From the NCBI GenBank assembly GCA_030835085.1, contig JAUQWQ010000029.1, positions 1 to 48,122 of the forward strand: DNA of 48,122 nt, written 5' to 3'. This stretch comes from Ignavibacteria bacterium (GTDB taxonomy: Bacteria; Bacteroidota; Ignavibacteria; Tepidaquicellales; OLB5). The notes under the pieces were generated by a model. The model saw nothing but the letters and a program-made list of their open reading frames with translations. It ran no database searches and was not told the DNA's origin. The position numbers and the translations under genes are program-made. Position 1 is the stretch's first letter, and every line of letters begins with the position of its first letter. Shown piece after piece: positions 779-10,035 of the stretch.

Positions 779-1264
779 ATCTATTACTTTAATTATTTTT
801 TAAATATATAAATTTATACCTTAAAAAATAAGCCTTGGTTCTCATAGAAATGGGGAAAAAAATATCAAATTGTTTTGAGAGTAATGCCGGACCCCGGATA
901 AATATCATATGATATTATGATGTTTTGTATCGAAATAATACCATTTTAAGGTTATTATTCAATAATAAGAAGTTGCGTATATTTGATTCAGAAACATTTA
1001 TGAACCTTTATTTAAAAATATAATCATGTATACATTTAAAAGAATTGAGCCGCTAATTTATTTACTGGTAATATTATTTGCATTATTATTTGTTCATAAT
1101 TTAGCTTCTTAAAAATGTAAAAAATTTACAGTCAGTATAGAGCATCAATTTCAGTAAATGGTTTAACCTTTCTGGTTCTAATTCAGTAAAATATCTGAAT
1201 TTAACTCTGTTTTTGGAGTTTTAATTTGTTATATGCTTTGCTAATTTTGTGTAAAAATCGGCTG
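779..1264. other. AT-rich intergenic region with one possible tiny ORF
   Basis: There is no convincing gene here. A 28-codon frame (1026-1112, +) would encode a mostly hydrophobic peptide, but it has no ribosome binding site. A GGAG at 1215-1218 precedes an in-frame TTG at 1226 that could start the Myb-repeat gene. I see no -24/-12 element here. Confidence 0.5.
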
Positions 1265-2008
1265 ATGAAAAAGTGGACAAGCTATCACTTAAGAATCCTT
1301 AAGAAACAGTATACTGAAAAAGGAGCAAAATATGTTGCAAAACGGACCGGACACCCAGTTTACTCGGTAGTTGCAAAAGCAAATTCGCTGGGAATTTATT
1401 CCGGCTCACTGCGCAGGTGGACTCAGTTTGAAGTGAATTATCTTCTCAAGAATTATTCCAATAAACCGGTTGATTCAATTGCCCGTTCACTCACACGCAA
1501 CAAAGCATCAGTAGAAAATAAAGCCCGGCAGCTCGATATTTATGTACCTAAACCAAAGAAATGGACTGATGAGCAGCTCAAACTTCTGAAAGAGTTATGG
1601 ACAAATAAAAAGTATTCTATTGATGATGTAGCTGCTAAACTTAATAAAACCAGGCCGGCAACACACTTCCAGGCATGGAAAATGGGTTTAAGAAGACCGC
1701 AGGTATGGCATTACTGGACTAAGGAAGAAACGAAGTATCTAAAGAAAAATTTCAGAAAAAAAACTTATGTTCAGATCGCAAAAGATCTGGGGATGACAAG
1801 AATAGCAGTTTTTCAAAAAGCAATTAAGTCCGGGTTACGATTGAGACGTGCTCCGCGTGCATGGACTGCAGCCGATGATGAATATATAAGGCAGAATTAC
1901 AGGAAAATCCCGACCCGTGATATTGCTGCAAAACTTGACCGGAGCCTGGATGCGATCATTAATCGCGCGGGACCTCTCGGAATTTCACGGAAAAAAGTAA
2001 AGAAATAA
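1265..2008 (+). CDS. Five-repeat Myb/SANT-like DNA-binding protein
   Basis: The protein is almost entirely five tandem units of about 45-50 residues. Each opens with a basic residue and W-T (KKWT, RRWT, KKWT, HYWT, RAWT), followed by a helix with E/Y/L spacing, an I-A-x-x-L helix and a third helix ending in G-[IL]. This is the pattern of a Myb/SANT or homeodomain-like three-helix fold. The charge is strongly basic, consistent with DNA binding. I chose the ATG at 1265 because repeat 1 begins right after it. An in-frame TTG at 1226 with GGAG seven bases upstream is a real alternative. It stands alone, followed by a strong terminator. It is likely a sequence-specific DNA-binding protein; its target is unknown. 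Confidence 0.72.
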   Translation: MKKWTSYHLRILKKQYTEKGAKYVAKRTGHPVYSVVAKANSLGIYSGSLRRWTQFEVNYLLKNYSNKPVDSIARSLTRNKASVENKARQLDIYVPKPKKWTDEQLKLLKELWTNKKYSIDDVAAKLNKTRPATHFQAWKMGLRRPQVWHYWTKEETKYLKKNFRKKTYVQIAKDLGMTRIAVFQKAIKSGLRLRRAPRAWTAADDEYIRQNYRKIPTRDIAAKLDRSLDAIINRAGPLGISRKKVKK

Positions 2009-7647: not shown

Positions 7648-8160
7648 TTAGATAGTTTCCTCAAAAACTCTTCTGAATTCTTTTCTTGCCCTGTGGAGCC
7701 TGCTTTTAACGGTGCCAAGCGGCCAATTCAGTTTTTTTGATATTTCAATCAGTGAAAACTCCTCTAGATGAAACAGGATAATGACCTGTCTGTAATCATC
7801 TTTTATACTTTCTATTATGCGCACAATTTCAAAATATTTAAGTGTACTTTCTTCTTCAGGTATATGCGGTTCATTCACAATTGTATCAAGGCTGTAGCAC
7901 GGATGTGCCTGTTTTTTCCTGTTAAAATTAATGAACAGGTTCTTCATTATCCTGAAAACCCAGGCTTTTGAATTACTGCCGGGTTCATATGAATCCAGGA
8001 ACCTGTATGCCCTGATGAAAGTATCCTGAAGGAGATTTTCAGCATCAAATTCATTCATCGTCATTTTTCTTGCGATGTTCAGAAAATATTTATGATGAAT
8101 GTAAATTTCATTCATAAACAGGTTGTCTTTTTCGCAGATAATGTTTTTCATATTATTCAT
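7648..8160 (-). CDS. ECF-type RNA polymerase sigma factor
   Basis: The 170-residue protein has sigma region 2 (residues 20-85, with DAENLLQDTFIRAYRFLDSYEPGSNSKAWVFRIMKNLFIN) and region 4 (110-165, with LIEISKKLNWPLGTVKSRLHRARKEFRR). It has the standard ECF size and no extra domain. No anti-sigma factor is recognisable next to it. The ATG overlaps the stop of the upstream 45-residue membrane protein (ATGA). A second ATG at 8151 has better spacing to AAGGAA. It may relay the upstream signal to a second set of promoters. I could not identify its target sequence. Confidence 0.9.
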   Translation of the reverse strand: MNNMKNIICEKDNLFMNEIYIHHKYFLNIARKMTMNEFDAENLLQDTFIRAYRFLDSYEPGSNSKAWVFRIMKNLFINFNRKKQAHPCYSLDTIVNEPHIPEEESTLKYFEIVRIIESIKDDYRQVIILFHLEEFSLIEISKKLNWPLGTVKSRLHRARKEFRRVFEETI

Positions 8161-8294
8161 TTCCTTTTAAATAAGCTTATGATTATCACAAATACTGCAG
8201 CTATCAGTAAAATGTGTATGTAACCTCCCAGAAAATTAGAAACAATTCCCAAAACCCAAAGTATTAAAAGCAGAATAAAAATTGTCCAAAGCAT
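8157..8294 (-). CDS. lmo0937-family mini membrane protein (45 residues)
   Basis: A 45-codon frame begins MLWTIFILLLILWVLGIV, then SNFLGGYIHILL and a second hydrophobic segment ending in FKRK. This is the lmo0937/DUF5670 pattern: two membrane segments with a G-G-[YF]-I-H-I-L turn. The paralogue at 37980-38132 shares the pattern. Function is unknown; members are often stress-induced. The stop overlaps the start of the ECF sigma factor, which suggests coupled expression. Confidence 0.8.
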   Translation of the reverse strand: MLWTIFILLLILWVLGIVSNFLGGYIHILLIAAVFVIIISLFKRK

Positions 8295-8329
8295 TTAATT
8301 TACCCCCGTAAATTATTTTATAAATGATT

Positions 8330-8464
8330 TTAAAGAACAAACATTGTAAATATCCATATAAACAGAAGAAGCAGGCTTAACCATTTATATACTTCATCGT
8401 TATCATCATCATGGTCAACTTCCAAGTGCTCGTTAAAAAGCTCTGTATTTTTATTTATGATCAT
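8330..8464 (-). CDS. Small acidic single-span membrane protein (44 residues)
   Basis: A 44-codon frame encodes an acidic N-terminal half (EHLEVDHDDDNDEVYKW) followed by one membrane segment (LSLLLLFIWIFTMFVL) to the end. It sits 6 bp after the DUF948-like gene and 35 bp before the lmo0937-type gene, in a tightly packed unit. The ribosome binding site is weak. I do not know the family. Confidence 0.55.
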   Translation of the reverse strand: MIINKNTELFNEHLEVDHDDDNDEVYKWLSLLLLFIWIFTMFVL

Positions 8465-8470
8465 GGCAGT

Positions 8471-8863
8471 TTAGTTTAATTTTTTATAAAAAACCCTGAA
8501 TCCTTTATTTACTGCATGTATTAAATTCATGAAGCTGCGTATTCTTATAACGGCAGCATCTCTCACCGCATCTATATATATTTCCGCTTCTTCAATTTTA
8601 TCCATTACCTTTCCGCTGATGTTTTCAGCGTCATTGCTGATCTTTACTATTGAATCCGATATTATGTTTATTTTACCCGTGAGAATACTGATATCATTCA
8701 GAACAGGTTTGATATCATTGCCTATATCATTTACCTTTTCACTCATTTTAGTTAAGCCGGAATTCAGTTCCTTTATATATATGATAACATAAATACCGGC
8801 CGCACATACAACTATAAACATTATGATCTCAATTAGTATTCTTATGATATTCAGTATTTCCAC
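8471..8863 (-). CDS. DUF948-like membrane-anchored coiled-coil protein
   Basis: The 130-residue protein has an N-terminal membrane segment (about residues 8-30), then a long heptad-rich helix (ELNSGLTKMSEKVNDIGNDIKPVLNDISILTGK and on) and a C-terminal amphipathic region. The arrangement is typical of DUF948-like general-stress proteins, which often neighbour YtxH genes, as here (19 bp gap). It is probably in the inner membrane with the helix in the cytosol; its molecular role is unknown. Confidence 0.75.
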   Translation of the reverse strand: MEILNIIRILIEIIMFIVVCAAGIYVIIYIKELNSGLTKMSEKVNDIGNDIKPVLNDISILTGKINIISDSIVKISNDAENISGKVMDKIEEAEIYIDAVRDAAVIRIRSFMNLIHAVNKGFRVFYKKLN

Positions 8864-8882
8864 TTATATTACTTTTTATTGT

Positions 8883-9269
8883 TTATTTATTTTTTCGTTC
8901 ATCATTAAAGGTATCAACACCTGCTCTTACTGCATCTCTTATTCTTGATGTTTCGTCTGTGATAAATTCCTTGCCCTGGGTATAAAGTTTTTCCGTACCT
9001 GTCGTCAGGGAATCAGCTTTCTTTTTTGCTTCTTTTATCAGGTTTTCCGCTTTCTTCCTGCCATCTGAAATTATTTCTGATGCCCTGGCCTTAGCTGAGT
9101 CGACATAATGCCCTGTTTCTTCAGCTACTTCGCGGCTTTTTTTACCGATATCTTTCCTGAGCTCTTTTCCGCTTTTAGGCGCGTATAGCAGGGCAGCAAT
9201 GCTGCCTATCGCCCCGCCTGCAAGCAGTCCCAATAAGAATCCTTTAGATGATGATGTTCTGTTTTCCAT
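8883..9269 (-). CDS. YtxH domain-containing protein
   Basis: The 128-residue protein starts with a GFLLGLLAGGAIGSIAALLYAPKSGKELRKDIGKK block, the signature of the YtxH family: a Gly/Ala-rich membrane segment followed by YAPxSGxExR. A long Lys/Ala/Glu helix follows (residues 40-110), like apolipoprotein- or LEA-type repeats. YtxH is a sigma-B general-stress protein in Bacillus. The gene has a good AAAGGAG ribosome binding site. It is followed by the DUF948-like gene, its usual partner. Confidence 0.88.
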   Translation of the reverse strand: MENRTSSSKGFLLGLLAGGAIGSIAALLYAPKSGKELRKDIGKKSREVAEETGHYVDSAKARASEIISDGRKKAENLIKEAKKKADSLTTGTEKLYTQGKEFITDETSRIRDAVRAGVDTFNDERKNK

Positions 9270-9309
9270 TTTTTTCTCCTTTAAACTGCCTGATAAACGG
9301 CATTTTTAT

Positions 9310-9939
9310 TTATTGTGATTTAAAGTTATTTCTTCCTTCTTTATTGATCTTTACGTCAAATCTAAGCTTGAATCCTGTTGATTCATTAAAAGATTCATCC
9401 AGGTATAATATTCCATAAACAGGGTAGGGAGTAACATTATCATCAAATTTACCTTTAAGATAAAACCCATAGACGGTATTGAAGAGAAGCGGTGCACTGA
9501 AAGATTCCGTATTATCTGATGTAAAATCGTTTTCAGTTAATGTTGTATCGGTATCAGGTATTACCTTCATTGTATCAAACTGTGATTGCGAAGCATGAAG
9601 CATTATGAGCTTAAACCTTGTACGGTAGCCCGGAACTGACACCGGGAAATCAGATAGATCACCGGAACGGAAAAAATATACTGAATCACCCAGCGAAATT
9701 GAATCTATCAGATTCGCATCCTTATACCTGCTTGAATCTTTTACTATTACTCCGCTGAAAAGATCTACTGCACTTAAAGCGTCATCAAATGGAATGGTTC
9801 TTTCCGAGATCAGAAGATTATTATAGTTCACTGCTACTGTATCAGTTCCGGGGGGATTTATCGGGTCTTCATCTTCACTGCATCCGTAATAAAATACTGA
9901 TGCAGTACATAAGATCATCAAAATTGCTAATTTTTTCAT
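9310..9939 (-). CDS. Lipoprotein of unknown function
   Basis: The 209-residue protein has a signal peptide with lipobox YYGC (Cys20), an acidic linker (SEDEDPINPPGTDT) and a beta-rich body. It contains SVDLFSGVIVKDSSRYKD and ends FDVKINKEGRNNFKSQ. The FSGVIVKDSSRYKDANLIDS segment resembles secreted domains in FCB genomes, but I do not recognise a family. It is preceded by the hairpin at 9986-10017 and lies between the barrel and YtxH genes. Confidence 0.68.
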   Translation of the reverse strand: MKKLAILMILCTASVFYYGCSEDEDPINPPGTDTVAVNYNNLLISERTIPFDDALSAVDLFSGVIVKDSSRYKDANLIDSISLGDSVYFFRSGDLSDFPVSVPGYRTRFKLIMLHASQSQFDTMKVIPDTDTTLTENDFTSDNTESFSAPLLFNTVYGFYLKGKFDDNVTPYPVYGILYLDESFNESTGFKLRFDVKINKEGRNNFKSQ

Positions 9940-9985
9940 TATTTGTAAAACTCCTTAATTATTATTATTAAATTGTTTGTTAAAA

Positions 9986-10017
9986 TTTCAGCAGGGCAAA
10001 GTTTAGCCCTGCTGAAA
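9986..10017 (-). terminator. 12-bp hairpin inside the minus-strand unit
   Basis: TTTCAGCAGGGC pairs perfectly with GCCCTGCTGAAA around an 8-nt loop, just after the barrel gene. On the minus strand it is followed by ATTTTAAC, a poor U-run. It may attenuate readthrough or protect the upstream mRNA rather than fully terminate. Confidence 0.6.
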
Positions 10018-10035
10018 GTTATTGTATAGAACTAT

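Follow-up and report, generated by a model that had tools for sequence, protein, structure and literature searches.

A chromosomal array of five GcrA-type helix-turn-helix units with conserved unit identity and order in Ignavibacteria

The closest curated family to the protein described here is GcrA, the Caulobacter cell-cycle regulator, for which PMC7403470 describes a DNA-binding domain, a linker and a sigma-interacting domain. The units of our protein are alike to that DNA-binding domain in sequence and fold; GcrA, however, has one such unit plus the linker and sigma-interacting domain, whereas the array protein has five units and neither of these. Tandem three-helix DNA-binding units also make up eukaryotic Myb proteins such as SNAPC4, c-Myb R1R2R3 and Reb1. 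Myb units carry three regularly spaced tryptophans each. Relatives are also found in phages. Phage T5 D5, recorded as a DNA-binding protein needed for replication and late transcription, belongs to the phage protein family phrog_323 ("transcriptional regulator, D5-like"), and certain phage LAGLIDADG and HNH endonucleases share the unit profile. A literature search listed no paper on such arrays in bacteria, from which we do not claim their absence from print, and a term search in PMC7987155 likewise returned nothing.

The window analyzed is a stretch of 48,122 nucleotides from an Ignavibacteria bacterium (contig JAUQWQ010000029.1). Its array gene (Table 1) starts with the ATG at 1265, which is backed by orthologues with a matching start position, and ends with the TAA at 2006-2008, giving 247 residues. 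The protein consists of five tandem helix-turn-helix units and nothing else. Tryptophans at residues 4, 52, 100, 151 and 200 open the units, which are thus 48-51 residues long, and similarity between units exceeds that of shuffled sequences in all ten pairwise comparisons (z 5.7-10.0), ruling out chance resemblance. The original prediction that five three-helix units fill the whole protein is thereby borne out, as it is by structure modeling; the basic residue predicted before each tryptophan is present in units 1-3 (K, R and K) but replaced by Y in unit 4 and A in unit 5. Overall the protein is basic, with a net charge of about +40. Pfam searches found no second domain, and a nuclease identity was rejected, as there is no Pfam nuclease match and the units take up the whole protein. 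PADLOC returned weak CARF/CasR helix-turn-helix matches only (E 1.7e-4 and weaker), and the 48-kb window holds no further match to the unit profile at E 1.

Table 1. Positions of the array gene, its units and its upstream elements in the window.
Feature	Position	Strand	Remarks
Conserved block upstream of box	1211..1241	+	putative upstream promoter part and/or operator
Promoter-like box TAATTTTG	1242..1249	+	presumed fit to Bacteroidota -7 element TAnnTTTG
Gene of five-unit array protein	1265..2008	+	247 aa plus stop
Unit 1 (residues 3-50)	1271..1414	+	helices 1 and 2 merged in AF2 model
Unit 2 (residues 51-98)	1415..1558	+	helices 54-63, 69-75, 80-89
Unit 3 (residues 99-148)	1559..1708	+	overlays GcrA DBD 5yiv, 0.9 Å over 44 residues
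Unit 4 (residues 149-198)	1709..1858	+	overlays GcrA DBD 5yiu, 0.9 Å over 43 residues
Unit 5 (residues 199-247, short basic tail)	1859..2005	+	overlays c-Myb repeat 2 (1mbg)

An AlphaFold2 (AF2) model built from a six-row alignment has a mean pLDDT of 79.8 and a pTM of 0.34, the latter meaning that no fixed or rigid arrangement of the units is predicted. The expected helical triplet appears in units 2-5; in unit 1, the first two helices are merged (6-28, followed by 32-42). Units 4-5 modeled separately reach a pLDDT of 84.4. Superposition on the GcrA DNA-binding domain (Table 1) gave Z 7.8 at 36% identity for unit 3 and Z 8.2 at 44% identity for unit 4, and that of unit 5 on c-Myb repeat 2 gave Z 6.0 (1.9 Å over 47 residues), all in the range below about 13 in which the aligner's Z may reflect an arrangement common among helical folds. 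Kinship with GcrA is nevertheless the better reading, since the deviations are small and the Pfam match is independent: GcrA (PF07750) is the sole Pfam family above its cut-off (36.2 versus 26.9 bits), matching in two stretches over profile positions 3-57, the best at residues 151-203 in the region of unit 4. Myb profiles stay below theirs (PF00249, 13.9 versus 24.4; PF13921, 9.1 versus 22.9), and of the three Myb tryptophans the first alone is invariant in the array, the other two places being mostly Y/F and A. Of the predicted Myb/SANT-like character, the tandem three-helix units thus hold, while the nearest curated family is GcrA; from sequence and predicted fold, we class the units as GcrA-type (Myb-like).

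The sigma-interacting domain of GcrA is absent, as the match does not extend past position 57 of the 155 in the profile; NF050816, the equivalog model of GcrA, scores 28 bits, far under its cut-off of 280. When the whole model was searched with Foldseek, the top rows were multi-Myb-repeat DNA-binding chains, namely a SNAPc chain (E 9e-4) and 1h88 (E 0.02); we take the SNAPC4 subunit of SNAPc to be a multi-Myb-repeat protein and 1h88 to be c-Myb R1R2R3. Structural neighbors of the units also include spliceosomal Myb-type and LSD1-CoREST (SANT-type) chains. In a PDB sequence search, the top row was a deaminase (E 0.15, or 0.021 when unit 4 was searched alone), which we regard as a chance match, and GcrA came next (E 0.82 and 0.51).

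Twenty-one more distant arrays were scored, unit by unit, with profiles of the five window units. Colinearity was as high as possible in nine of these (minimum permutation count, arrays of at least five units), and L055 was near-colinear (70 of 5040 permutations). The five arrays of family f5 were not colinear with the window array; the remaining six gave a mixed picture, two four-unit arrays being at their minimum (1 of 24) and four ranging from 10 of 720 to 1844 of 5040. A unit tree was calculated from 75 units of 15 arrays in six families, comprising ten colinear arrays (f10, f17, f18, f22 and f23) and five genus representatives, with 11 distant arrays and six genus orthologues left out. 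In this maximum-likelihood tree, units group by position and not by protein, with four position-label changes, the least possible, against a shuffled mean of 46.2 (0 of 200 shuffles as low as 4); as each array had been given one register picked by similarity, the tree confirms the position pattern and does not discover it. Support is good for the groups of units 1, 3 and 4 and moderate for that of unit 5, and unit 2 falls into two pieces. Unit-specific information averages 1.007 bits per column versus a maximum of 0.549 in 500 shuffles, and the highest columns include columns 34 and 37 in helix 3, together with columns in helix 2 and the linker. The recognition helices do differ from unit to unit, as had been proposed.

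Judged from these comparisons, unit identity and order are conserved across at least six bacterial families. The arrays of f10, f17, f18, f22 and f23, all from Ignavibacteria, are colinear with the window array in units 1-5, but mostly have one or two extra units and other neighbors. Distinct units kept in a fixed order suggest a separate task for each, and the pattern fits the predicted reading of a long, specific site. Within the genus, the positions that we presume to face the bases, by analogy with Myb, are only modestly more conserved than exposed helix-1 positions (0.92 versus 1.36 bits, p 0.037), with 2 of 20 and 3 of 20 invariant, respectively.

The array gene is present in 11 of the 13 genomes of the genus, source genome included (all Ignavibacteria MAGs); the two without it are 75% and 94% complete. 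One contaminated genome aside, it is single-copy and chromosomal there. Named relatives carrying it are Ignavibacteria MAGs and Chlorobi bacterium OLB5. At E 0.001, the array is absent from both genomes of other genera in the same family and from all 29 genomes of the order's other sampled family. Class-wide, arrays occur in 33 of 294 genomes and 18 of 152 genera (E 1e-8), with up to seven matches per genome, so their presence is patchy; in a phylum sample, 10 of 395 genomes match at E 1e-15, all ten from the same class. As far as searched, the closest relatives are confined to the genus.

Three cases deserve separate mention. In the contaminated genome (6% contamination), a second copy of the array gene spans the join of a 5,098-base contig (L033, G006:C239) whose ends overlap by 57 bases and which assembles as a 5,041-base circle; this circle either arose in assembly or represents a small circular element. 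Seven array matches, spread over several loci (L082, L087, L088, L089 and others), occur in genome G065 of family f5, an expansion specific to that lineage in which the units are ordered differently. At L073, a tandem pair of array genes with seven and six units (7982-10032) is likely the product of gene duplication.

Outside the class, arrays were found in mobile DNA. At E 0.001, 74 of 72,556 plasmid records match, one place covering at least 80% of the query in 37 of them, as do 23 of 50,697 phage records. Contrary to the original prediction, long arrays are therefore not rare in bacteria, while the profile search in bacteria and phages that it proposed did find them in class, plasmids and phages alike. 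Plasmid arrays of Sphingobium, Stutzerimonas and Enterobacter, all hypothetical proteins, share 25-31% identity over most of the query and, with the unit profile set to a loose threshold, show 6-8 stretches; they differ from the window array in being plasmid-borne and mostly longer, with integrase, transposase or ATPase genes nearby in the loci read. On two plasmids (L100 and L103), the array and a tyrosine recombinase or integrase gene are two genes apart, a possible link to the attachment sites of mobile elements. In a Qipengyuania plasmid (L102), the match lies within a gene annotated as ATP-binding protein, adjoined by DUF87 and PAPS-reductase-family genes, and in Sphingobium (L099), a separate array gene sits between DUF87 and ATP-binding genes; the arrangement looks like a multi-gene module.

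Among phage families, phrog_323 gives the best match (E 2e-44, three stretches), and its member gp65 of Listeria phage B054 has four unit matches. The family profile matches over the whole array, but its members are phage proteins, whereas the window-type array is chromosomal in the genus and has no significant pairwise similarity to T5 D5 (BLASTP, E 0.49). On the unit profile, T5 D5 reaches only 14.0 bits, where the best shuffled sequence reaches 11.2, the profile being loose enough to match in 11 of 14 control genomes. The family phrog_1891 ("HNH endonuclease") also matches. At three viral loci (L036, L038 and L037), one, two or four units are joined to HNH or LAGLIDADG_3 domains; the unit thus accompanies nucleases, although the window protein itself carries no nuclease domain.

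The surroundings of the array gene point to no general partner. Of its neighbors in the window, only the upstream gene at 2-778, which has no Pfam match, recurs beside or near the array, in three of 13 compared loci (L023, L024 and L026). Hydrogenase-maturation-type genes, grouped by BLAST, lie near the array in four genus loci; at L024, Pfam identified HypF, HypD and an AIR-synthase-type (HypE-like) gene. No function-linked partner gene is conserved near the array in the window or the genus, where the prediction of a missing partner therefore stands; in distant relatives there are neighbors, which vary by lineage. In other families, an exporter operon (MFS, M29 peptidase, HlyD, MacB) precedes the array at four loci, its genes having been identified in L074 and a single one in L080. 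A histidine kinase gene follows the array in L074 and precedes it in L078, and a class II tRNA synthetase gene is near it in L073 and L077. Further neighbors are a TdeIII restriction enzyme (L070), a D12 adenine methyltransferase (L072) and UvrB (L075). A prophage or plasmid gene in the genus was rejected on account of the recurrent neighbor and of the hydrogenase-maturation genes nearby in several relatives; no close relative turned up among the viral contigs scanned, which also counts against prophage origin there.

Two further features of the window may be noted. An open frame of 28 hydrophobic residues upstream of the array (1026-1112, plus strand), possibly encoding a small membrane peptide, also precedes the array in L024 (82%) and L023 (75%). 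A sigma-70-type (ECF-like) sigma factor gene at 7648-8160 on the minus strand is not found near the array in the compared relatives.

Sequence comparison with genus orthologues indicates strong purifying selection on the array gene: dN/dS is 0.036-0.067 against five of them, values that are rough because dS is near saturation throughout, and a sixth pair gave no finite dS. The upstream DNA is conserved as well. The box TAATTTTG, which fits the Bacteroidota -7 promoter element (consensus TAnnTTTG), lies 23-25 nt before the ATG in six of the 11 genus genomes carrying the gene. In the 35 nt before it, 22 columns agree in at least five of these six genomes (shuffled mean 2.7, maximum 8), and the DNA farther upstream has diverged among them. 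This block may be a promoter, an operator or both. It occurs once in the genome when up to three mismatches are allowed; a shorter form has eight matches, its own included, versus five for a reversed control, and a genome-wide repeat search found no regulon sharing the block.

T5 D5 and the nuclease-fused relatives make DNA binding the natural function of the array and at the same time supply the main rivals to specific reading. With a probability of roughly 0.6, we propose that the protein is a sequence-specific double-stranded-DNA-binding protein with five GcrA-type units in a string. The third helix of each unit would lie in the major groove and read a few base pairs, and the five units would track along the DNA in fixed order, together reading an asymmetric, composite site that may be 20-45 bp long. 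As it has no further domain, the protein probably works by sitting on DNA or shaping it, whether as repressor, roadblock or architectural factor, at a single site or a few sites that possibly include its own promoter. Several results weigh against this proposal: the f5 arrays are not colinear, the presumed base-facing positions are conserved only modestly above helix 1, the model gives the units no rigid arrangement, the upstream block does not recur in the genome, and presence in the class is patchy.

Specific reading is plausible, and we prefer it mainly for the conserved unit identity and order, our strongest result, which a reader of a composite site would best fit. A basic array that coats long stretches of DNA with little or no specificity, like T5 D5, would share the high net charge, the missing second domain and the match to the D5-like family to which T5 D5 itself belongs, but exchangeable coating units would not be expected to keep a fixed identity and order; the insignificant similarity to T5 D5, its weak score on a loose profile and the single chromosomal copy in the genus further make coating rather unlikely. 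We give a lower chance to regulation in the manner of GcrA, which binds methylated-adenine promoters and sigma factor; the units would then recognize sites with methylated adenine and contact RNA polymerase. The Pfam match, the overlay on a GcrA domain solved with methylated DNA and the two distant arrays adjoining restriction-modification genes are in its favor, yet neither the sigma-interacting domain nor a convincing NF050816 score is there, methylation genes adjoin the array in just 2 of 20 wider distant loci and in none of the genus, and the sole N6/N4 methyltransferase from a PF01555 search of the genome (G000:C92:11976-12806) is in two pieces with in-frame stops.

The array might instead derive from, or help, a homing endonuclease, as the DNA-aiming part left once the nuclease was lost, a history that the viral fusions and the phrog_1891 match would suit. 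All five units stand alone here and in the genus orthologues, however, and strong purifying selection with a conserved place in several genomes is unlike a selfish remnant, so that we hold this improbable; an ancient derivation followed by a new use is conceivable. The slimmest chance goes to SANT-like units that bind protein or RNA and do not read DNA: the spliceosomal and LSD1-CoREST neighbors speak for it, while the charge and the nearer kinship, in both sequence and structure, to the GcrA DNA-binding domain speak against it.

What sets this array apart is that its five GcrA-type positions stand alone, are conserved on the chromosome and lack the GcrA effector domain. GcrA/Myb-like arrays of several units are common in mobile DNA and across the class, but those covered by this analysis carry only a hypothetical or profile-based annotation. 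Should they be specific, they would represent compact DNA readers of a type that has received little study in bacteria. The family is suited to asking how long DNA addresses are recognized in bacteria other than by dimers, and whether a recognition code governs the units. More tentatively, the array could be the equivalent, on a bacterial chromosome, of zinc-finger or TALE-type readers, in which every unit has its own conserved specificity and fixed place and lineages lengthen one DNA address by adding units (there are five here, but most colinear relatives have six or seven), with the same module also used by phages, plasmids and homing endonucleases. If that were true, a recognition code of the units could be derived from paired arrays and sites.
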